Positions 10,371 through 21,155 of a stretch of DNA of 21,848 nt are shown in pieces (positions within the stretch are counted from its first letter, which is position 1; every line of letters begins with the position of its first letter). A program made the translations under genes and the position numbers. Source of the stretch: a virus; IMG/VR virus record IMGVR_UViG_3300009507_000151, positions 1 to 21,848 of that record; one strand, given 5' to 3'. The notes beneath the pieces are model-generated. The model was not told where the DNA came from. It saw only the letters and a program-made list of their open reading frames with translations, and did no database searches.

Positions 10371-12005
10371 TTATGACATTATCTCTAATCCATGTACAAG
10401 TACCTTACCGTAGAACTCACCTCTTACCATTTGTTTAGCGTAACGTGTCATTACACCTTTTCTTGGCGTGAAGTTTTTCGGGTCATACACAAGTGGAGTC
10501 ATGATTAATGGAATGTACGGAGCGTAAACTGCACCAGTTTCCAAGAATTGAGAACCTTTGAATCCTAATAGGATTACATTTTCTTTCATGTATGGGTTTT
10601 TGTAAACTTGATATCTGTTAGCGAATGAACCTACTTGAGAAACTCCCATAGCAAATTGCATTTCGTTACCTGTACCACTAGCAGCAAATCCTGGAATTGA
10701 TTCTAAGATAGTTGCAACATCAGGAGAAACTACCATAAAGTTAGCTCCACCTCTCATAGTCTTAGAGTGAATCTGGTTAGAAACTCTCTGTAACTGAGTA
10801 CCTAAAGTCTGGAACCATTGTTGTTGAGTATATCTTTCAACATTAGCGTTAAGACCTGAAGATGTGAAACCACTTCCGTTCCATGAATATCCGATTCTTG
10901 CAGACCAGTATCCAGTTGTTAAAGCATTTTCTAATAACATATCTAAGATTTCTAAATCAATCTCTTGAGAGATGTACTCAGATAACATAGAAGTTAATTC
11001 TGCTTCAGCATCTACTGAATGGTAAGCATTTAAATCTTGTGCGAACTCAGGCGTCCATTGTGCTTTTAACTTTCTTGTCTTAGCAACGATTGGTACACTT
11101 CTAAGTTCAACGTTTAATTCAGGAATTCCTAAATCTGTAGCGTCAGAATCTGTGTTCTCAAAATCACCTCTTGAAATATCAGTAGGTTGTTTTTGATAGT
11201 TAACAACAACTTGGTCAAGTACAGTTGCAGCTGCAGAAGCTTTAACGATAAATTCAACATTGTTTCCAACTAATTTAGTGTATCTTGGGTAGCTATCAGC
11301 AATACCAGAACCTGAAATACTGAAAGCTCTTACACCTTCTAAATCAGGGTTAGTCATAGAACCTTTAGCAACAGTTACTTTTCTAAGTAAAGCAAAGTCA
11401 CCAGCAGCAGCAGCTTCTAATGATGCAGAAAATTCTGAATCATAATCAACAGCAGCCAAATCAACTGAACCAGTTGCGATTTCTGTGTTAGATGCAGCAG
11501 CAGCGATTCCTAATGCAACAGTTGAAGCTTCATTGATTGAATAACCAAATCTACCTGCCCCATAAAGACCTTCACTAGCTTTAGCAGCAGTTTCAGTAAT
11601 ACCGAAAACTGAGTCAGTTTGTGAATCTTTTCCAGCACCAGTTTCAAAGTTTGGTTGTGCTGTTCCATACTTAAAGTCTAAATAAAATACTAGACCTGAA
11701 GGTAAGTTCATCGGTTGAACCGAAACGAATTCTTTAGCAGCGATTTCGCTGAAAATTCTTCTTACTAATGGTAATGCAACACCAGCCCACTCTTCAGAGT
11801 TTGCAGATGTTCCTGTTGAAGAAGCTTCTTTTACTAATTCTCTTGCTTGATTTTCAAGTAGAGTAGCAATAGCGCTTCTTTCGAAATCAGACTCGATACC
11901 TTCTAAAAGGCCAGTCTTGTTCCACTTAGATACAAGACCTTTTGACTCTTCAGACATTTTCTTGTTAAATCCAGCGGATTCTTTTAATAATGAATTTGTA
12001 TCCAT
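10371..12005 (-). CDS. gp23: Major capsid protein, T4 gp23-like
   Basis: The product has 544 residues (T4 gp23 has 521) and forms the hexamers of the head. Family marks are the N-terminal scaffold-binding stretch, then FVSVQPMNLPSG (93-104) matching the T4 'GVQPMNSPTG' region, and a C-terminal stretch with TRYAKQMVRGEFYGK. T4 gp23 is cut after residue 65 by the prohead protease; here RELVKE|ASS at 60/61 is the matching position, and an earlier LLKE|S lies at 9/10. The central part (about 115-290) differs strongly from T4 and is Ala/Ser-rich, a likely insertion domain. It lies 26 bases after the scaffold gene with GAGGA upstream, so the two are cotranscribed, and a strong terminator follows. 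Confidence 0.95.
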   Translation of the reverse strand: MDTNSLLKESAGFNKKMSEESKGLVSKWNKTGLLEGIESDFERSAIATLLENQARELVKEASSTGTSANSEEWAGVALPLVRRIFSEIAAKEFVSVQPMNLPSGLVFYLDFKYGTAQPNFETGAGKDSQTDSVFGITETAAKASEGLYGAGRFGYSINEASTVALGIAAAASNTEIATGSVDLAAVDYDSEFSASLEAAAAGDFALLRKVTVAKGSMTNPDLEGVRAFSISGSGIADSYPRYTKLVGNNVEFIVKASAAATVLDQVVVNYQKQPTDISRGDFENTDSDATDLGIPELNVELRSVPIVAKTRKLKAQWTPEFAQDLNAYHSVDAEAELTSMLSEYISQEIDLEILDMLLENALTTGYWSARIGYSWNGSGFTSSGLNANVERYTQQQWFQTLGTQLQRVSNQIHSKTMRGGANFMVVSPDVATILESIPGFAASGTGNEMQFAMGVSQVGSFANRYQVYKNPYMKENVILLGFKGSQFLETGAVYAPYIPLIMTPLVYDPKNFTPRKGVMTRYAKQMVRGEFYGKVLVHGLEIMS

Positions 12006-12031
12006 AATATTATTTTCCTCTATTTTTTAAA

Positions 12032-13123
12032 TTATTTTACTAATCCAGCCAATTTCTTAAATCGGTTGGCTACTTCGTTACCTTCTGAGATTATTGATTT
12101 ACTTGGAGCAGAAGATTTAGTTGGTTTAGAAGCCAAAGACTCTTTTACAATTGTCTTAGTTTTCTTAGCAACGTTTAAATTCTCACCTAGTGTAGAAAAT
12201 ACTAACTTAACTTCTCTTAAGTTTGCAGCTCTATCAAAGTTCTCGATAACTTTAATTTTTTGTGACTCGTTCAAATCAAAAGTTCTGAATAGTTTATTAG
12301 TATAAAGTAGTTTAGCGTTTAATAAATTTACTTCGTTGATTGTACCTTGTAAAGACTTAATAGTCTCATAAGCTTCTTCCAACTCAGCTTCTTTGTTATC
12401 TTCTTCTTCTTTTACTTCTTCTTCTTCGTTTTCTTTTAATTCTTCTTCGTCAGACTCTTCTTCTTCAGTCATTTCTTTTAAAGTAGCGATGATTTCGTCT
12501 AAGTTAAGCTCTTCGTCTTCTTCTTTTACTTCGTCTTCTTCTTCTTCTTCTTTAAGTTCTTCAACTTCGTCTTCTTCGTCTTCTTCTTCGTTGATTGAAG
12601 CTTCAAGTTCAGCGATTACAGATTCTAAGTCAAGTTCATCTTCTTCTTCCATTTCATCTTCTTCAGATTCGTCTGCAGGTACAGCTTCAGCTTCTTCAGC
12701 TTCTTCTTCACCATGCATTTCATCTTCGTGAGATTCGATTTCATCAGATGCGATGTCTTTTACTTCTTCTTCTTCGTCAGACTCTAACTCTTCTTCAACT
12801 TCTTCTTCTTTTACTTCTTCTTCTTCAGATACTTCTTCACCTTCTTCAGATTCTTCTACTTCTTCTTCAGACTCTTCTACGTCTTCTGATTCGTAAGTTT
12901 CTTCAACTTCTTCTTCAGATTTCATATCAGACATCTCAGCAGAGATTTCTTCTTCTTCTTCAATTTCTTCATCGTCAAGCTCTTCAGCTATCTTATGAGA
13001 TAACATTGATTGAAGTTTAGGTGTAAAAGCTTCTTCAAGTGCCATTTTTGCGTTAGCTAGTGCAGTTTCTTTTACTGCTTTAGCATCGGCAATAGCTTCT
13101 TTTAATAAATCAGATTTAGCCAT
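12032..13123 (-). CDS. gp22: Prohead core scaffold protein, T4 gp22-like
   Basis: The product has 363 residues and is extremely acidic: residues about 48-245 are mostly Glu with Asp, Ser and Val. The N-terminus is helical and basic/Ala-rich (MAKSDLLKEAIADAKA), with LLKE|A at 9/10 as a candidate protease site. The C-terminal third carries the gp22 signature NLLNAKLLYTNKLF (about 266-279), followed by FDLNESQKIKVIENFDRA and REVKLVFSTL. Gp22 forms the internal core that directs capsid shape and is then degraded by gp21. The gene lies directly upstream of gp23, as in T4, with a strong AAGGAG site 7 bases before the start. It is longer than T4 gp22 (269 residues) because of the acidic middle. Confidence 0.9.
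   Translation of the reverse strand: MAKSDLLKEAIADAKAVKETALANAKMALEEAFTPKLQSMLSHKIAEELDDEEIEEEEEISAEMSDMKSEEEVEETYESEDVEESEEEVEESEEGEEVSEEEEVKEEEVEEELESDEEEEVKDIASDEIESHEDEMHGEEEAEEAEAVPADESEEDEMEEEDELDLESVIAELEASINEEEDEEDEVEELKEEEEEDEVKEEDEELNLDEIIATLKEMTEEEESDEEELKENEEEEVKEEEDNKEAELEEAYETIKSLQGTINEVNLLNAKLLYTNKLFRTFDLNESQKIKVIENFDRAANLREVKLVFSTLGENLNVAKKTKTIVKESLASKPTKSSAPSKSIISEGNEVANRFKKLAGLVK
12405..12975 (-). repeat. Low-complexity GAA/GAAGAA tract within the scaffold gene
   Basis: Purine-rich (GAA)n-like sequence on the coding strand encodes the poly-Glu region of the scaffold protein. Long open frames on the opposite strand here are shadows of this bias, giving poly-Ser and poly-Leu products, and are not genes. 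Confidence 0.9.
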
Positions 13124-13153
13124 TACAGTTCTCCTTAATTAAATTTTGGATAA

Positions 13154-13275: not shown

Positions 13276-13524
13276 TTATTGTTCTCTTTTGTTTCTTAGC
13301 CATTCTGCTCGAATAGCATCGTCCATCTTTTTTCGTTTTCTAGCTGATGGTTTGATAAACTCTTTTCGGTCTTTTAGCTCATCTAAGATTTCAGATTCCT
13401 TCATCTGTCTCTTAAAAAACTTTAATGCTGCTTCAATGTTTCCATTAACTACTTTAGCCGCTCTAAATCTACCTGGAATCATCATTTGTTCTTTTCGAAC
13501 TTTTCTATTATTGTTTCGTTGCAT
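13276..13524 (-). CDS. rpsU: Phage-encoded ribosomal protein bS21
   Basis: The product has 82 basic residues. The bS21 core is clear: VVNGNIEAALKFFKRQM (25-41), ILDELKDRKEF (46-56), FIKPSARKRKK (56-66). In bacteria bS21 sits on the 30S platform next to the 3' end of 16S rRNA, where the anti-Shine-Dalgarno lies, and helps initiation. The 'FIKPS' core resembles Bacteroidota bS21 more than the E. coli form. Aligned by eye with the flavobacterial protein, the residue matching Tyr54 is Arg72. The N-terminus is about 15 residues longer than usual; Met14 or Met15 could be the true start. No Shine-Dalgarno site precedes the gene, unlike most neighbours. A terminator hairpin abutted by a promoter-like motif lies upstream. 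It is likely a mimic that exchanges into host ribosomes during infection (inference). Confidence 0.88.
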   Translation of the reverse strand: MQRNNNRKVRKEQMMIPGRFRAAKVVNGNIEAALKFFKRQMKESEILDELKDRKEFIKPSARKRKKMDDAIRAEWLRNKREQ

Positions 13525-13535
13525 ATATAAGGTAT

Positions 13536-13570
13536 AAAAAAATAAACACCTATCAGTTGTTGATAGGTGT
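13536..13570 (-). terminator. Rho-independent terminator between the H1-like gene and bS21
   Basis: On the coding strand a perfect 10-bp stem, ACACCTATCA with TGATAGGTGT, closes a 5-base loop and is followed by TTA and seven T residues. It starts directly at the end of a promoter-like motif and lies 11 bases before the bS21 start, so bS21 is shielded from read-through. Confidence 0.88.
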
Positions 13571-13580
13571 ATATAAATAT
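13571..13580 (-). promoter_or_regulatory. Candidate phage promoter motif ATATTTATAT abutting a terminator
   Basis: Exact match to ATAYTTATAY on the coding strand, immediately upstream of the terminator stem and 46 bases before the bS21 start. If it acts as a -10 element, transcripts would begin inside the first arm of the stem and so escape termination. Confidence 0.55.
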
Positions 13581-13606: not shown

Positions 13607-13777
13607 TTACTTACTTTCGTCTACTGAAGCTTTTCTGTAATCGGTTACCAACTTTTTTATCTCTCCAATAGCTTTTCTTGCTCTACTCTTAGATGCTTTA
13701 GTTGTTCCATTGTGTTCTGCTTCAAATGTTTCGTATAAATCTTTTATACTTTCAAAAATTTCTTGTGACTTTGCCAT
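13607..13777 (-). CDS. Histone H1-like nucleoid protein (Bacteroidota type)
   Basis: The product has 56 residues and is Lys/Arg-rich. The N-terminal half is an amphipathic helix (MAKSQEIFESIKDLYETFEA), and the second half holds the family mark KASKSRARKAIGEIKKL (27-43) followed by YRKASVDESK. The order of a short helix, an 'A-x-R-A-R-K' block and a final 'FRK-x-S-(I/V)-(D/E)-E-S-K' matches the small H1-like (Hc1 family) proteins found across Bacteroidota. Those bind DNA in the nucleoid. Here it could coat phage DNA, compact the host chromosome, or be packaged. It lies between a helical protein of unknown function and bS21, 28 bases after the former, with only a weak GAG before the ATG. Family assignment is from memory of the motif. 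Confidence 0.75.
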   Translation of the reverse strand: MAKSQEIFESIKDLYETFEAEHNGTTKASKSRARKAIGEIKKLVTDYRKASVDESK

Positions 13778-15434: not shown

Positions 15435-16067
15435 CTAAAAACATTCACAATAGCCACCAACTTCACAGATGATGTCTCTCATAATGTTTTGTGCTTTTTT
15501 ATATCTATAAGTATTATTTTTTTGTGAAACACCTTCTTTTAACATACTTTCATTTGTAGGTTTTAAAAAAGCGCCGTGAGTAGATGGGTTGGAAACAAAG
15601 TCCCAGCATATCAAATCAAAATCATTTTCCACAGCAACCGTTCCATCTTCTCTAATTTGTTTAACCGAACCCATCCCTCTTGAGGATATACCCACGGTAC
15701 AACCAGCTTTTATTATTTCTTGTAATATTTTACCTGAAGGTGTGTTTAGTATCTCTACTGAACCTACAACGTCATTTCCAGCCCACTCAACTTTTCTTAC
15801 GATGTGTGAGGTGTTCTTAAGTTCTACTACTGAAGATTCTGGATGGTCTAATTCACCATATGCTCGGTTTTCTTTGATTTCTCTACCGATATATTTAGTT
15901 ACTTCACGTTCAAGTATGTTTTTTGGATATACACGACCATTTTGGTTTTTGGCATCAGCTCGTTGTAAAACGCCACTAACCAAAAATCTACCATGTTCAG
16001 ATTTTGCTTCTGCTAACATAGTAGGTGTTACTTCAAATACCATTGTATCAATCAATAGTTGCTTCAT
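15435..16067 (-). CDS. gp21: Prohead maturation protease, T4 gp21-like
   Basis: The product has 210 residues from the start chosen at 16067 (MKQLLID), where GGGAG lies 5 bases upstream. The ATG at 16079 has no such site and overlaps the preceding small gene more. It is a serine protease of the T4 gp21/herpesvirus assemblin type: catalytic His75 in GELDHP (71-76) and a serine in GISSRG (126-131, Ser128 or Ser129), with VYPKNILEREV (46-56) as in the family. It lies inside the prohead, cuts scaffold, capsid and internal proteins after L/I-x-E, and then degrades itself. A site MLKE|G near 178/179 may serve self-cleavage. The end, YCECF, has two Cys close together, which is unusual for the family. 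Length is similar to T4 gp21 (212). Confidence 0.93.
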   Translation of the reverse strand: MKQLLIDTMVFEVTPTMLAEAKSEHGRFLVSGVLQRADAKNQNGRVYPKNILEREVTKYIGREIKENRAYGELDHPESSVVELKNTSHIVRKVEWAGNDVVGSVEILNTPSGKILQEIIKAGCTVGISSRGMGSVKQIREDGTVAVENDFDLICWDFVSNPSTHGAFLKPTNESMLKEGVSQKNNTYRYKKAQNIMRDIICEVGGYCECF

Positions 16068-16069
16068 TG

Positions 16070-16204
16070 TTACTCCCATTGTTTTTTCTTACGGTATAAA
16101 TCAAAAAATACTCTAGCTAACTCATGACGAATTAACTTTCTGATTTGTTGGATATCCGAAATTTCCAATTCTTCGTTTATTTTATTTTTGTTACATCCAC
16201 ACAT
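16070..16204 (-). CDS. Small Cys-containing protein of unknown function (44 aa)
   Basis: The product has 44 residues, begins MCGCNKNK and ends RKKKQWE. The body is an amphipathic, basic helix (ISDIQQIRKLIRHELARVFF, 15-34). The ATG lies 1 base after the stop of the previous gene, and its stop lies 2 bases before the protease ATG at 16067, a tight fit that supports a real gene. The stop TAA follows the GGGAG that serves the protease, so translation may be coupled. In T4 two small core genes (67 and 68) lie between portal and protease; this could be a counterpart, but no sequence match can be claimed. The CxC pair may bind metal or form a disulfide. Confidence 0.6.
   Translation of the reverse strand: MCGCNKNKINEELEISDIQQIRKLIRHELARVFFDLYRKKKQWE
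16073..16077 (-). promoter_or_regulatory. Ribosome binding site fixing the protease start
   Basis: GGGAG on the coding strand, 5 bases before the ATG at 16067, lies inside the last codons of the 44-residue gene. It supports MKQLL as the protease start over the ATG four codons earlier. Confidence 0.7.
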
Positions 16205-16205
16205 A

Positions 16206-16745
16206 TTATGCACTCAATTCTTTTAATTGACGAGCAACTTTTAACATTCTTTCAGAAATTTTTCCAAAACGTTTTTGTGTAGACTTCCAATACTGACCAG
16301 TGTGTACACCTGTTTCAGTTTTTAGTTTGGAATTTTGATTTACAATTTTAGTGATTTCCCACATCAATCTGTTAATTTCTTTTATAGATGTATTAACCTT
16401 TTGATGAGCTTTCATTGAATCATCGTTCTTGTATTCCTTATATGTAGCCTCTATAATACTTTCTAAATTAGACTCCATTCGTGTTATGGATTCGAAATTA
16501 GATTTAGATTTTTTACTTTTCTTATATCCTAATACTTCAATATTGTCAATATTTAAATCATCTTCATCAGTACTCTTTGCAAATGCATTTGGGGTTTTTA
16601 TTGGGCCTGCTCCCCCATCCATGTTACCAGTTACATTAGCTTCATCAGTAGTATCTTCATCTTCGTCTTGACCAAGTAATACATCTTTCTTTTCCTCTAA
16701 CTCAACAAATTTCTTATCAAGTTGTTCTAATAAAAATCTTGACAT
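16206..16745 (-). CDS. Unknown head-module protein (179 aa)
   Basis: I do not recognise it with certainty. It has 179 residues, starts MSRFLLEQL, has an acidic low-complexity stretch (about 24-75, with DEDEDTTDEAN and STDEDDLN) and then a basic KKSKKSK patch. The C-terminal half is helical (ESNLESIIEATYKEY; IKEINRLMWEITKIV; ERMLKVARQLKEL). A protein with an acidic N-terminal half and helical C-terminal half between portal and protease genes is in the place of T4 core proteins gp67/gp68, so a prohead core role is plausible but unproven. Strong AAGGAG stands 6 bases before the start, and the ATG overlaps the upstream stop (TAATG), so translation is coupled. Confidence 0.7.
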   Translation of the reverse strand: MSRFLLEQLDKKFVELEEKKDVLLGQDEDEDTTDEANVTGNMDGGAGPIKTPNAFAKSTDEDDLNIDNIEVLGYKKSKKSKSNFESITRMESNLESIIEATYKEYKNDDSMKAHQKVNTSIKEINRLMWEITKIVNQNSKLKTETGVHTGQYWKSTQKRFGKISERMLKVARQLKELSA

Positions 16746-17581
16746 TATTTTCTCCTTAGTTCTTGAAGTAATTGATGATACCTTAATAAAGCAAGTACTT
16801 GATTTTCATTAACTACTTTATTTTTAGTTAGCTCACTAATTAAGTTTATAGTTTCATTTAGTTTTATCTGAGTTACTTTGTCAGTAATTTTGAGTTTTTT
16901 CAACTCTCTTCTTAACTTAGCTACCTCAGCAACAACAAATTTTCTTAAATTACCTGAGTTATCTATGTTGTTAATATAAGACTTAAGGATTCCCTTTTGG
17001 TCTTCAGATAGATTTGAATATTTTGAATTAAAAGAATCAACTAAAAATTTGTAAGCCAATAATCTAATTTCTTTTGGTTCTTTGTTGTATTTTTCGTTTA
17101 CGTTGTCTTCTTTGATTACTACCTTGTTAGTAGTGATTGCCTCAAAGATAGTACTCTTACAATCTACATAGTCTTTTGGAGACTCAGACTCAGTACTTTC
17201 AAATAATTTGTAAGTAGATGCCATTTCTTTGTAATTGTTTACTCTATACTTAAAGAAGTCACCTATATCATATGATTCTTTAATAGATTTAATTACATTG
17301 TATTTTTGTCTTCTTAAAATACTCTCATTAAGTTTAGTTCTTTCTTTAAGAACTATGTTTAAAAACTCTTGCGCTTTATATTGAGAGTCAAAGTTTTCTT
17401 TAGTTAGTGCTTGATACAAAGCTAATTCTTTTGCTATCTCACTACCCTTTTTGAAATGCTTTTTAATAATCTCAGTTGCGTAGCATTTTTTATCCGACAG
17501 CGTATCGGATGCAATTTGTCTAACTAATAGTTCAAACAATATGCCTGTGTTTTTAAATTTGCTATGTTTCAATTTTGCCAT
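16745..17581 (-). CDS. Unknown head-module protein (278 aa), downstream of portal
   Basis: I do not recognise a named family. It has 278 residues, is basic and almost entirely helical: KFKNTGILFELLVRQIA (8-24), then LNIVLKERTKLNESILRRQK, and near the C-terminus KLRRELKKLKITDKV, LNETINLISELTKNK and LALLRYHQLLQELRRK. No Cys pattern, membrane segment or catalytic motif is visible. It follows the portal gene by 48 bases with its own promoter-like motif, and AAGG lies 7 bases before the start. Position next to portal and core genes suggests a head-assembly role, for example a core or vertex protein; this is inference. Confidence 0.75.
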   Translation of the reverse strand: MAKLKHSKFKNTGILFELLVRQIASDTLSDKKCYATEIIKKHFKKGSEIAKELALYQALTKENFDSQYKAQEFLNIVLKERTKLNESILRRQKYNVIKSIKESYDIGDFFKYRVNNYKEMASTYKLFESTESESPKDYVDCKSTIFEAITTNKVVIKEDNVNEKYNKEPKEIRLLAYKFLVDSFNSKYSNLSEDQKGILKSYINNIDNSGNLRKFVVAEVAKLRRELKKLKITDKVTQIKLNETINLISELTKNKVVNENQVLALLRYHQLLQELRRK

Positions 17582-17629: not shown

Positions 17630-19507
17630 CTAAACCGTGTCATCTCTTAATTGAGATTCATCTAATAAACCACCTTTATCGGTGTTTTTAGTGTCTTCTT
17701 TTAAAGATTCAAGTATTACACTTCTTGATTTTCCTTTAACTTTCTTTAAAGATGTTGTTAAAGCTTCTTTTTGTTCATATGCCAGTGGTGAGTTCTTGTA
17801 CTTGTGATAAGTAGTAGCTCGTTTTCTATCTGTATCTTGACCAAGTGGGTCTCTACCAAATGGATTATCATCTGTTTTGTAGTTACCTGATTCTGGAGGT
17901 CTTCCAGCACCATCATGACCACCTTGAGGTGAACCACCCTCTTGTGCAGGTTGGTCACTATCATCACCACTTTGTTGAGATAATGATGCTAAATCATGTG
18001 CAGTACCAAATGATTCACCAGTTTTAACTGGGTCATTACCTTCATCTTCTATTTGACTATGTCTGAATCCTAATTTAATATCACTAATGACTTTTCCTTG
18101 TTCAAGCTTCCACTCGTCATCACTCATATTAAATATATTCTTATACATCCACTCTTGAGATAACATATTTAAGTCTTTCATATCTGAAACTAATGATACT
18201 TTTTCAGACCAAAGATTTGCTTTCTCTTGTTCGTATATGATAGATGGGTTAGTAAGTTCTAATTCAAAGTTTACTAAATCTGCGTTTTCATATCCTTGTG
18301 AATACAAGTGTACAACAGCTATTTTAGTTAATTCAGAAAGAACAATTTTTTGAATTCGTTCAACTGTTCTAGCGAAACGAATATCTTGTTGTGCAAGTGT
18401 AGCCTTACCTTCAACACCTTCTTCATACCCAATAAAAGCTTTCGGAACTTTCAGAGCAGCCATCATTCTATTTTTTAAATACTCAATATCATCAATACCA
18501 CCGAATTCCATTCCTTGTAATGAATCAATTTCAGTACCACTTTGACCACCTCTTACAGGTAGATAGTAATCTTCTAACATATTCATTAAGTTAAACTTTA
18601 GATTGTAATCGCCAGTATTTTGGTCTAAGTAAGGAACTTTTTTCATTTGGTCAATAATACTTCTCATGTGATTATCAACTTCACCAGGAGGAATATTACC
18701 AACATCAATTTTAAAGACTCTCTTTTCAGGCGCTCTCATAATTCTATGAATCATCATAGCATCTTCCATAAGAGTTAATTGCTTCCAAGTCTTTCTAGCA
18801 CCTTCTAATAGTGAACGACCATAAGGAAGGAAGTTTGTATCTGACATTAATCTAAAGTGTGCCATTTCATAAAACTCAAAGTACTCAGCATTTTTGTTTA
18901 CACTTGCACCATGTGCAGCCCCCATTGACCCCATTTTGAATCTTACTTCATATGGGTTCTCTGGATTAAAACCTTCTTCACGTTCTACTTCATATGCAGA
19001 CATTGGTGATGCGTTAACAATACCTACTTGTTCTTCTATATCAAGATGTAAGTAATAATCACCATACTTGTTCATACCCCTAATCCATGACCATAGATTA
19101 AACTCAATGTTTAGTACGTCATAGAATAAGTTATGTAATATCTTTTTAATATTCTCGTCATTTGACTTAATACGGATTACATCACCCATATCATTTTTTA
19201 GAGTAGTCTCGTCTGAATATATATCTAATACAGATGCGATGATAGAATCCTTATCCATCGCTTCGTAATCTGTATATAATTCTAATTTATTAGAATGATA
19301 GTTGAATTGATTGTTATAGGTTTCCCAATGTCTTCGAGTGGTATGTAGTCTACCAAATCTGTCGTAGTAAGATGAGCCTCTTAAGTTACCTTGAGACTGG
19401 AGTCGTTGCGTATCAATAGCTTGGGTATTACCCTTACCTACCCTACGAACTACCACTTGCGTGTTAAATAGTTTCTTTAACCTACCAAATAATGATTTAT
19501 CTGCCAT
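17630..19507 (-). CDS. gp20: Portal protein, T4 gp20-like
   Basis: The product has 625 residues (T4 gp20 has 524). Portal dodecamers form the unique head vertex, nucleate the core and provide the DNA channel. Family marks: YTDYEAMDKDSIIASVLDIY (about 76-95) followed by SDETT, WSWIRGMNKYGDYYLHLDI (about 141-159), FLPYGRSLLEGARKTWKQL (about 224-242), the RIMRAPEKRVFKIDVGN stretch (about 254-270) and IEYLKNRMMAALKVPKAFIG (about 345-364). The extra length is a low-complexity tail (about 515-550, rich in Gly, Gln, Ser, Pro) and a basic end with VILESLKEDTK, which includes possible protease sites. No Shine-Dalgarno site precedes the ATG. A promoter-like motif lies 37 bases upstream. Gp18 and gp19, which separate 17 from 20 in T4, are absent. 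Confidence 0.95.
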   Translation of the reverse strand: MADKSLFGRLKKLFNTQVVVRRVGKGNTQAIDTQRLQSQGNLRGSSYYDRFGRLHTTRRHWETYNNQFNYHSNKLELYTDYEAMDKDSIIASVLDIYSDETTLKNDMGDVIRIKSNDENIKKILHNLFYDVLNIEFNLWSWIRGMNKYGDYYLHLDIEEQVGIVNASPMSAYEVEREEGFNPENPYEVRFKMGSMGAAHGASVNKNAEYFEFYEMAHFRLMSDTNFLPYGRSLLEGARKTWKQLTLMEDAMMIHRIMRAPEKRVFKIDVGNIPPGEVDNHMRSIIDQMKKVPYLDQNTGDYNLKFNLMNMLEDYYLPVRGGQSGTEIDSLQGMEFGGIDDIEYLKNRMMAALKVPKAFIGYEEGVEGKATLAQQDIRFARTVERIQKIVLSELTKIAVVHLYSQGYENADLVNFELELTNPSIIYEQEKANLWSEKVSLVSDMKDLNMLSQEWMYKNIFNMSDDEWKLEQGKVISDIKLGFRHSQIEDEGNDPVKTGESFGTAHDLASLSQQSGDDSDQPAQEGGSPQGGHDGAGRPPESGNYKTDDNPFGRDPLGQDTDRKRATTYHKYKNSPLAYEQKEALTTSLKKVKGKSRSVILESLKEDTKNTDKGGLLDESQLRDDTV

Positions 19508-19580: not shown

Positions 19581-21155
19581 TTATAGTAACCAAGTTAAAT
19601 CGTTATCGTTTCCACGTTGGTCTTTTTGTTTCCATGGGTCACTTCTAAGGTTATGAGACGCATAAGCACCAGGTGAGTTTTTTCTCATATGGGTTAATGT
19701 AGTTCTTGTTAAATCCATACCCTGTTGTCTTAATTTTAATGCCGTATCTCTTACCCAAAGTCCTGTTGAGAATGATATCACCAAATCATCATTGTAACCA
19801 CGTTGGGCTTCAGCTCTACTACCATTCCATATAAAAACAAAGAGTTCATCTATTAAACGTTTTGAACGTACAATAGGTGTTCTCTCTCTCATATAAGTAT
19901 CTAATTTTGAGATAACCAATGGTCGTGTTCTACTTGTCATTGAGAATCCAGGTACCATATCATCTTTACGTTTTAAATCAAATCCTTTTCGTAAATGAAT
20001 ATCTTCATCAATATAACCAATATCTCTATATGAATAATATAAGTTTTGATAGTTTCGGTCTATAACTTCTTGAATAACTGCCCAACCTATATTAGCGTTT
20101 TCTATAACTAATAAGGCGTTGTTCCATTCGGTAGCAACTGAAGTTAAGAATGCCCCATATTGTTTAGTTTCTATTTTACCTTTATATTCGGCAACTTGCT
20201 CAACAGTCTCTACATCAAATACATGAAATGCTGAGTAATCCGTAGAATCACCACGAGCAACATCAGCCACTACTACATAACTTTTTGAATAATTAGGGAA
20301 GTCCCATAACCAATAATTTCCATCAAATCCTCGTTTTTCAATTGGGTCTTTAACGTGTGTTTCTTCATACCATTGTAGAGTAGAACCCTCAACAACTGTA
20401 TAACCAGATGAAATGAAGTCACAATCACATTCTTGTGCTGCTCCCTTTTCTCCAAGAAGTTTAGTTTGTTCTTCTCTCCATTGTTGATTTCTATCAGGAT
20501 GTACTGACCAATGTAGTTCTATTGGATTCCATTGTTCACCAGCTTGTCCTTGTAACCATACTTTATGAAACCAATTACCAACACCATTAGGGGTAGATAG
20601 TACAATTGCACCACCACCAGTAGATAATGTAGATTGTGCTGATGTCCAAATTTCTTCTACATTGTCGATAAAGGCAGCCTCATCAATTACTAATAATGAT
20701 AATGCTTCAGAACGACCAGCATCACCTGCTGCTGATGTAGCTTTTATTTGAGACCCATTTTTAAGTCTAAGAGAAAGTTTATTATCTTCTTCAGTCTGGC
20801 CTTTTAGCCACGATGGTAGATTTTGATGCATAAACCTAACTTTGGTAACTAAGTTTTTAGCTACCTCTTGTTTGGTTGCAATTACCAATACGTTCTTGTC
20901 TTCGTGAAATAACATTAACCAGAGTGAATATCCGGCTGATAGTGTTGATATACCTAACTGTCGTGATTTAAGTATTACATTGAATCTTTTTTCAGATACA
21001 GCCCCCATTAAGTCTTCTTGGAAATCATAAAGATTAAAAAGAATCTTACCACGAGATGGGTGTTGTATATAACAATACTTTCTAAAAAAGTATACGGGGT
21101 CTTTAGCACATTTAACGTACTCTTCTCTTACTATTTCTTTAATAGACTTTGACAT
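19581..21155 (-). CDS. gp17: Large terminase subunit, T4 gp17-like
   Basis: The product has 524 residues (T4 gp17 has 610). It is the ATP-driven packaging motor that docks on the portal and cuts the concatemer. The N-terminal ATPase has a Walker A variant SRQLGIST (64-71) as in T4-like terminases, Walker B LLVIDEAAF (154-162, catalytic Glu159) and the coupling motif LSTPNG (186-191). The C-terminal RNase H-type nuclease shows D298 in VVADVARGDSTD, E352 in VIENANIG and D456/D457 in YNDDLVISF, the expected acidic triad. It begins 3 bases after the stop of the membrane-anchored gene. No Shine-Dalgarno site is visible, so coupling with the upstream gene is possible. No small terminase is recognised beside it. 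Confidence 0.96.
   Translation of the reverse strand: MSKSIKEIVREEYVKCAKDPVYFFRKYCYIQHPSRGKILFNLYDFQEDLMGAVSEKRFNVILKSRQLGISTLSAGYSLWLMLFHEDKNVLVIATKQEVAKNLVTKVRFMHQNLPSWLKGQTEEDNKLSLRLKNGSQIKATSAAGDAGRSEALSLLVIDEAAFIDNVEEIWTSAQSTLSTGGGAIVLSTPNGVGNWFHKVWLQGQAGEQWNPIELHWSVHPDRNQQWREEQTKLLGEKGAAQECDCDFISSGYTVVEGSTLQWYEETHVKDPIEKRGFDGNYWLWDFPNYSKSYVVVADVARGDSTDYSAFHVFDVETVEQVAEYKGKIETKQYGAFLTSVATEWNNALLVIENANIGWAVIQEVIDRNYQNLYYSYRDIGYIDEDIHLRKGFDLKRKDDMVPGFSMTSRTRPLVISKLDTYMRERTPIVRSKRLIDELFVFIWNGSRAEAQRGYNDDLVISFSTGLWVRDTALKLRQQGMDLTRTTLTHMRKNSPGAYASHNLRSDPWKQKDQRGNDNDLTWLL

Follow-up and report, generated by a model that had tools for sequence, protein, structure and literature searches.

A phage bS21 with arginine at the Tyr54 position and conserved Shine-Dalgarno sites on late genes of a T4-like myovirus with a predicted Bacteroidota host

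The window analyzed here, a stretch of 21,848 nucleotides from the viral record IMGVR_UViG_3300009507_000151, encodes a ribosomal protein bS21 with an arginine at the position of Tyr54 of Flavobacterium johnsoniae bS21. Many late genes of this phage and its relatives carry conserved, correctly spaced Shine-Dalgarno (SD) sites, and a sister clade of phages that lack bS21 does not use SDs. The reading that we tentatively favor, at slightly less than an even chance, is that host ribosomes become SD-competent for late messages through the phage bS21 and that Arg54 (F. johnsoniae numbering) is one plausible contributor. Late expression of the gene, incorporation of its product into the 30S subunit, a freed anti-SD in the host and a causal role of bS21 in SD use would all belong to this reading.

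The sequence-only reading had described an 82-residue bS21 with an FIKPS core, an arginine (Arg72) at the Tyr54 position and no tyrosine, and closer analysis of the protein bore this description out. A match to the Pfam family Ribosomal_S21 (PF01165) was obtained with 46.5 bits against a gathering cut-off of 27 (E=2.9e-12), the FIKPS core was located and no tyrosine was present among the 82 residues. A phmmer comparison with chain z of 7JIL, the F. johnsoniae bS21, aligned residues 28-79 with chain residues 10-61 without gaps and placed Arg72, and not an aromatic residue, opposite Tyr54. Single-sequence AlphaFold2 modeling predicted an unbroken C-terminal helix for residues 60-80 (pLDDT of approximately 93 there and 70 overall), so that a hidden indel near Arg72 would not be expected. 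Trp75, which had gone unmentioned in the first description, is found at i+3 from Arg72 and corresponds to F. johnsoniae position 57. The identical protein was present in three IMG/VR contigs, that of the window included; a longer one among them (G001, locus L004, 111,909 bases, here called the 112-kb copy) was analyzed as a whole. Because the protein recurs in three contigs and Arg54 in 78-79 loci, this residue is neither due to chance nor to an assembly error.

Table 1. Coordinates of features in the window (SD, Shine-Dalgarno site).
Feature	Position	Strand	Remarks
Collagen-like (Gly-X-Y) fibre	1-1550	minus	HINT/intein-like stretch before the collagen repeat, ending in VHN (PT-HINT E=1.4e-4, below the Pfam cut-off)
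Putative fibre, 1501 aa	5014-9519	minus	repeated FTGSAQTS-type segments; weak cadherin-like match
Major capsid protein gene (gp23-like)	10371..12005	minus	SD-led
SD AGAGGA of major capsid gene	12016..12021	minus
Scaffold/core protein gene	12032..13123	minus	SD-led
SD AAGGAG of scaffold gene	13131..13136	minus
bS21 gene	13276..13524	minus	82 aa, ATG start; N-terminal extension of ~20 residues and C-terminal helix
Trp75 codon (TGG)	13300..13302	minus	one helical turn past Arg72; aromatic in most Arg54 relatives
Arg72 codon (CGA)	13309..13311	minus	faces Tyr54 of F. johnsoniae bS21 in ungapped alignment
FIKPS core, residues 56-60	13345..13359	minus
SD-less bS21 leader	13525..13545	minus	from hairpin to ATG, U-tract included
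Hairpin ACACCTATCA-acaac-TGATAGGTGT, then U-tract	13546..13570	minus	resembles a terminator; conserved ahead of the bS21 gene in most Arg54 phages
TATTTATA, candidate phage (late) promoter element	13572..13579	minus	intergenic enrichment in coding orientation
Small Hc1-like (histone H1-like) gene	13607..13777	minus	E=8e-9; directly upstream of bS21
Prohead protease gene (Peptidase_S77)	15435..16079	minus	without SD in the window copy
Structural-region gene	16206..16745	minus	strong SD AAGGAG at 16752-16757
Portal gene (gp20-like)	17630..19507	minus	without SD in nearly all relatives
Terminase large subunit gene	19581..21155	minus	SD weak or none

Among relatives in viral contigs, Arg54 was found in about 78 loci (78-79), and the other residues at this position were Phe (22 loci), Tyr (20), His (2), Gly (2) and Lys (1). 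Leu54 was also met in two phage contigs of the Flavobacteriales bin G602, and Met54 in LR756508. Position 57 was occupied by Trp in 46, by Tyr in 24 and by Phe in three of 78 Arg54 loci. A Tyr54/Trp57 form (L126-L129) was nested within the Arg54 phage clade, in a short alignment with weak deep support. Chen et al. 2022 (PMC9723584) report an aromatic residue at position 54 in 61 of 61 phage bS21 proteins, and relative to that set the Arg54 clade departs from the published pattern. The only phage isolate with a near bS21 was Mel-JY01 (PP395634; L100, L373-L375), in addition to huge metagenomic phages close to it.

SD sites were counted on simple gene calls that start at the first ATG, and all SD figures are therefore approximate and probably conservative. 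It had been proposed that most messages of this phage carry SD sites, and this was found for the window, in which 12 of 19 genes are preceded by a match of 4 nt or more (15% in shuffled sequences); the statement was weaker for the 112-kb copy, with SDs on 32% of the genes of at least 90 aa compared to 14% after shuffling. A sharp peak of SD tetramers at -15 to -6 was seen in both Arg54 and Tyr54 phages. In Arg54 phages it reached 0.39 and 0.21 tetramers per gene per 5-nt bin over a background of 0.03-0.07, and in the bS21-less Flavobacterium phage immuto tetramers at these positions were absent or avoided. All 77 Arg54 loci measured showed an SD signal, and the median share of genes at dG<=-4 was 69% in these loci versus 12% in phages without bS21. 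Little SD use was detected in the Bacteroidota control phages phi38:1, 11b, P12002L, B40-8 and crAss001 (0.11-0.29 versus 0.03-0.22 shuffled).

The sites are concentrated on late genes, as 82 of 136 late genes but 42 of 153 early genes in five Arg54 contigs carried an SD (odds ratio 4.0, p=2e-7). Comparison of orthologues located SDs nearly always on the leaders of the capsid gene, the scaffold gene and the gene at 16206, and only rarely on those of bS21, portal and terminase. For the major capsid gene, all 39 distinct leaders from window-like phages with bS21 contained an SD, and the same was true for 31 of 32 distinct scaffold leaders from diverged window-like relatives. It is very improbable that these sites date from an ancestor in SD-using hosts and persist as relics without effect, since relics would decay, yet the capsid and scaffold sites were kept in diverged relatives and the bS21, portal and terminase leaders do without them. 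The existence of Mel-JY01, a bS21-encoding relative that is assigned to Microcystis and uses SDs, would fit such an ancestry.

Use of SDs largely followed the presence of a phage bS21. Among immuto-like phages, the capsid leader contained an SD in three of three distinct leaders from phages with bS21 and in none of 69 from phages without it; the bS21 region was covered in 49 of these 69, and no bS21 was found in 15 longer bS21-less contigs that were each searched whole. The capsid tree shows one change in bS21 and one in the capsid SD, both on the same branch, a perfect match that is a single event, and an independent-contrast test carries no statistical weight because only one independent pair exists. 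Three different T4-like phage contigs of the same wider lineage were found in the Flavobacteriales bin G602 (C35, C58 and C78; L490-L492). Two of them encode a bS21 with Leu54 and have SD-led genes, and the third has neither bS21 nor SDs. Even so, phage bS21 is not sufficient for SD use, because no SD use was detected in LR756508 (a 484-kb phage), in L154/L155 (extended bS21 with Phe54) or in phages with a short, host-like bS21 that has Tyr54 or His54 and no extension (L014, L015, L017-L020). Of 32 scaffold leaders from bS21-less relatives, 13 remained SD-like. In several bS21-less phages (L336-L363), an SD-like element was observed solely before the scaffold gene, for example TTTAAGGAGAAACAC.

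Residue 54 itself is neither necessary nor sufficient for SD use, even though all measured Arg54 loci use SDs. The sequence-only reading had treated this position as the switch, and that part was not supported: phages of the same lineage with Phe54 or Tyr54 use SDs, LR756508 with Met54 does not, and Arg54 is native in Bacteroidota outside the Bacteroidia. Arg54 alone was likewise rejected as a predictor of SD use. An N-terminally extended phage bS21 is the better predictor. It could thus be argued that bS21 drives SD use through its N-terminal extension, changes in the N-terminal helix or dosage and that Arg54 reflects neutral drift. SD use in Phe54, Tyr54, Gly54, Lys54 and Leu54 relatives agrees with this explanation, as does the absence of SD use where the bS21 is short and host-like, and N-terminal extensions of phage bS21 proteins were noted earlier (PMC7162821). 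Nevertheless, the extended bS21 of L154/L155 goes without SD use, and neutrality of Arg54 is disfavored because Arg54 together with an aromatic residue at position 57 is strongly conserved in 78 loci of divergent relatives, which makes this explanation unlikely. Under the favored reading, in which bS21 makes ribosomes SD-competent, Arg54 would probably contribute without being the sole route, given that Phe54 and Tyr54 relatives use SDs as well; the extended N-terminus and the changes in the N-terminal helix probably matter too.

The bS21 gene is itself an exception to SD use, and only one of 29 distinct bS21 leaders among the relatives contained an SD. Owing to this SD-less leader, unmodified host ribosomes should be able to make the phage bS21, which the proposed switch needs. 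Host rpsU differs in this respect, as it has an extended SD in many Flavobacteriales (PMC9976891). Both the hairpin with its U-tract and TATTTATA usually precede bS21 in the Arg54 clade. Judged by their sequence, the hairpin and the adjacent TATTTATA may represent the terminator of an upstream operon joined to a phage promoter for bS21. The TATTTATA motif precedes many genes in coding orientation in the phage group of the window, including the 112-kb copy, and in phage immuto. It is the reverse complement of the T4 late TATAAATA and a probable phage promoter element.

The meaning of Arg54 depends on the host. A bS21 was present in 385 of 396 Bacteroidota genomes of a phylum-wide sample, and 47 distinct host proteins, taken from best-scoring loci and not as a random draw, included 15 with Tyr54 and 31 with Arg54. 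In an RpoB tree, every Tyr54 genome fell into one clade with Tenacibaculum and Draconibacterium, which corresponds to the class Bacteroidia, and the Arg54 genomes were placed outside this clade. They included group b, which resembles Balneolales/Rhodothermia, and the mixed group d, both group names being inferred. Over loci L385-L444, residue 54 of host bS21 is thus Tyr in the Bacteroidia and Arg in the other Bacteroidota classes, in agreement with the report that Tyr54 is unique to the Bacteroidia (PMC9976891). As Arg54 is native outside this class, it is remarkable in the phage only if the host belongs to the Bacteroidia.

The earlier suggestion of a Bacteroidota-type host found support in the 112-kb copy. 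All six clear signal peptides had Gln at +1, a feature described as the Bacteroidetes Q-rule (PMC5837995), and 41 proteins matched Flavobacterium phage immuto, a common set of secreted proteins among them. Both lines of evidence point to a Bacteroidota host. Placement within the class Bacteroidia is probable, with a fair margin of doubt. Gln+1 carries little weight as proof of this class, since signal peptides of this type were also seen in groups b and d. Two further candidate markers were discarded: the Bacteroidota promoter TTG-N17-21-TAnnTTTG occurred at too few sites and is also present in the Flavobacterium phage, and a thymidylate synthase fragment was uninformative. A first scan of genome contigs with a phage alignment gave no match, and a second returned a mixture of Bacteroidota and Clostridia. 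Mel-JY01, although labeled a Microcystis phage, has signal peptides without Gln+1, which sets it apart from its relatives; its host label may be open to doubt.

A host from another Bacteroidota class (Rhodothermia/Balneolales-like or Ignavibacteria-like) would have Arg54 natively, and the phage bS21 would then simply match that of its host and SD use would be normal host translation. Clear SD use in group d (0.58 versus 0.31 shuffled) and the Gln+1 signal peptides of these classes accord with such a host, and so does the Balneolales-like bS21 C-terminus AVRExRRRQRENY, which resembles the phage AIRAEWRRNQFENY. However, the Balneolales-like group scarcely uses SDs (0.20 versus 0.14), and the window bS21 scored highest with the Bacteroidia profile (47.8 bits, compared to 40.5 for Balneolales-like and 33.0 for other proteins). 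Relatives of the phage capsid were absent from 129 genomes of the Balneolales-like order but occurred on three contigs of a single Flavobacteriales genome out of 388, where binning does not equal infection. In addition, the nearest bS21-less isolates infect Flavobacterium and Tyr54 variants nest within the Arg54 phage clade. Taken together, a host with native Arg54 is considered unlikely.

For a Bacteroidia host, a switch in translation could proceed as follows. The window bS21 would be functional and belong to a T4-like myovirus, and unmodified host ribosomes would translate the SD-less early genes and bS21 itself. The phage protein, made late in infection from its SD-less message, would replace host bS21 in new or exchanging 30S subunits. 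There it would not rebuild the stack of Tyr54 on A1534 that parks the 3' tail of 16S rRNA in Bacteroidia ribosomes, and because this stack would be missing, the tail may be less firmly parked and the anti-SD available. SD-led late messages, such as those for capsid and scaffold proteins, would gain an advantage. The importance of Tyr54, as claimed at the outset, is backed by experiments in F. johnsoniae, in which the Y54A mutation increased the output of SD reporters by between 70% and three-fold and left SD-less output about unchanged (PMC9976891). Phage bS21 was also shown to enter E. coli ribosomes, but translation by ribosomes with the viral protein dropped to about 5%, which counts against the proposal (PMC6375957).

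A substitute for Tyr54 might be sought in Trp75, located one helical turn away; even a partial replacement of the stack by this residue would weigh against the switch. If Trp75 took over the stacking role, the anti-SD would stay hidden, and the phage protein would serve as a mimic or a resupply of host bS21. The prevalence of aromatic residues at position 57 in Arg54 relatives speaks for such a stand-in, but the conserved late-gene SDs would be left unexplained. Moreover, Clostridia bS21 also pairs a basic residue 54 with an aromatic residue 57. Clostridia commonly use SDs, so these two residues can coexist with an open anti-SD, and a stacking Trp75 is regarded as quite improbable. The proposed gain of SD competence can also be stated more broadly, namely that Bacteroidia phages of a widespread group override the class-wide anti-SD hiding through their own bS21 and have late genes built around SDs, so that the virus would in effect make an SD-dependent ribosome inside hosts that disregard SDs; this is a possibility to which we give less credence than to the switch itself.

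The purpose of phage-encoded bS21 has been in question since such genes were discovered. Bacteroidia lend themselves particularly well to a test of this question, as bS21, bS18 and bS6 together keep the anti-SD of their ribosomes hidden. A phage bS21 that lacks the decisive residue, combined with late-gene SDs that track bS21, yields a concrete prediction that is testable by a reporter in F. johnsoniae. The Arg54 clade also calls for a qualification of the published view that an aromatic residue 54 is retained in phage bS21. Phage bS21 proteins, their expression late in infection and the notion of a takeover of the ribosome were already known (PMC6375957, PMC7162821, PMC9723584). A literature search that covered few subscription papers and preprints returned no report of a non-aromatic residue 54 in the lineage of the window and none that connects phage bS21 to SD use among Bacteroidota phages.

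Several known systems resemble the window in part. According to the accessible text of Chen et al. 2022 (PMC9723584), freshwater Bacteroidetes myoviruses, whose hosts are predicted, likewise have bS21 near late structural genes, inside a T4-like terminase-portal-protease-capsid block. In those phages bS21 and the structural genes are on opposite strands, and residue 54 is aromatic in all 61 cases, whereas the window gene is co-directional with its neighbors (all minus) and encodes Arg54; SD use of phage genes is not reported in that text. Pelagibacter phage HTVC008M (PMC6375957) also encodes bS21, and it is this protein whose ribosome entry was demonstrated in E. coli. Its host is an alphaproteobacterium, where anti-SD hiding is not known, and the window is assigned to a Bacteroidota host by inference. 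Flavobacterium phage immuto (MW353175) and its relatives share the capsid, portal, terminase and tail gene set of the window and a Bacteroidota host, but differ in having neither bS21 nor SD use. A further parallel is the F. johnsoniae bS21 with Y54A or deltaC (PMC9976891), a member of the same family that aligns with the window protein and in which loss of Tyr54 raises SD-led translation in F. johnsoniae. That system is a host mutant, whereas the window encodes a phage protein that occurs naturally, carries Arg54 and Trp57 and is extended at its N-terminus.
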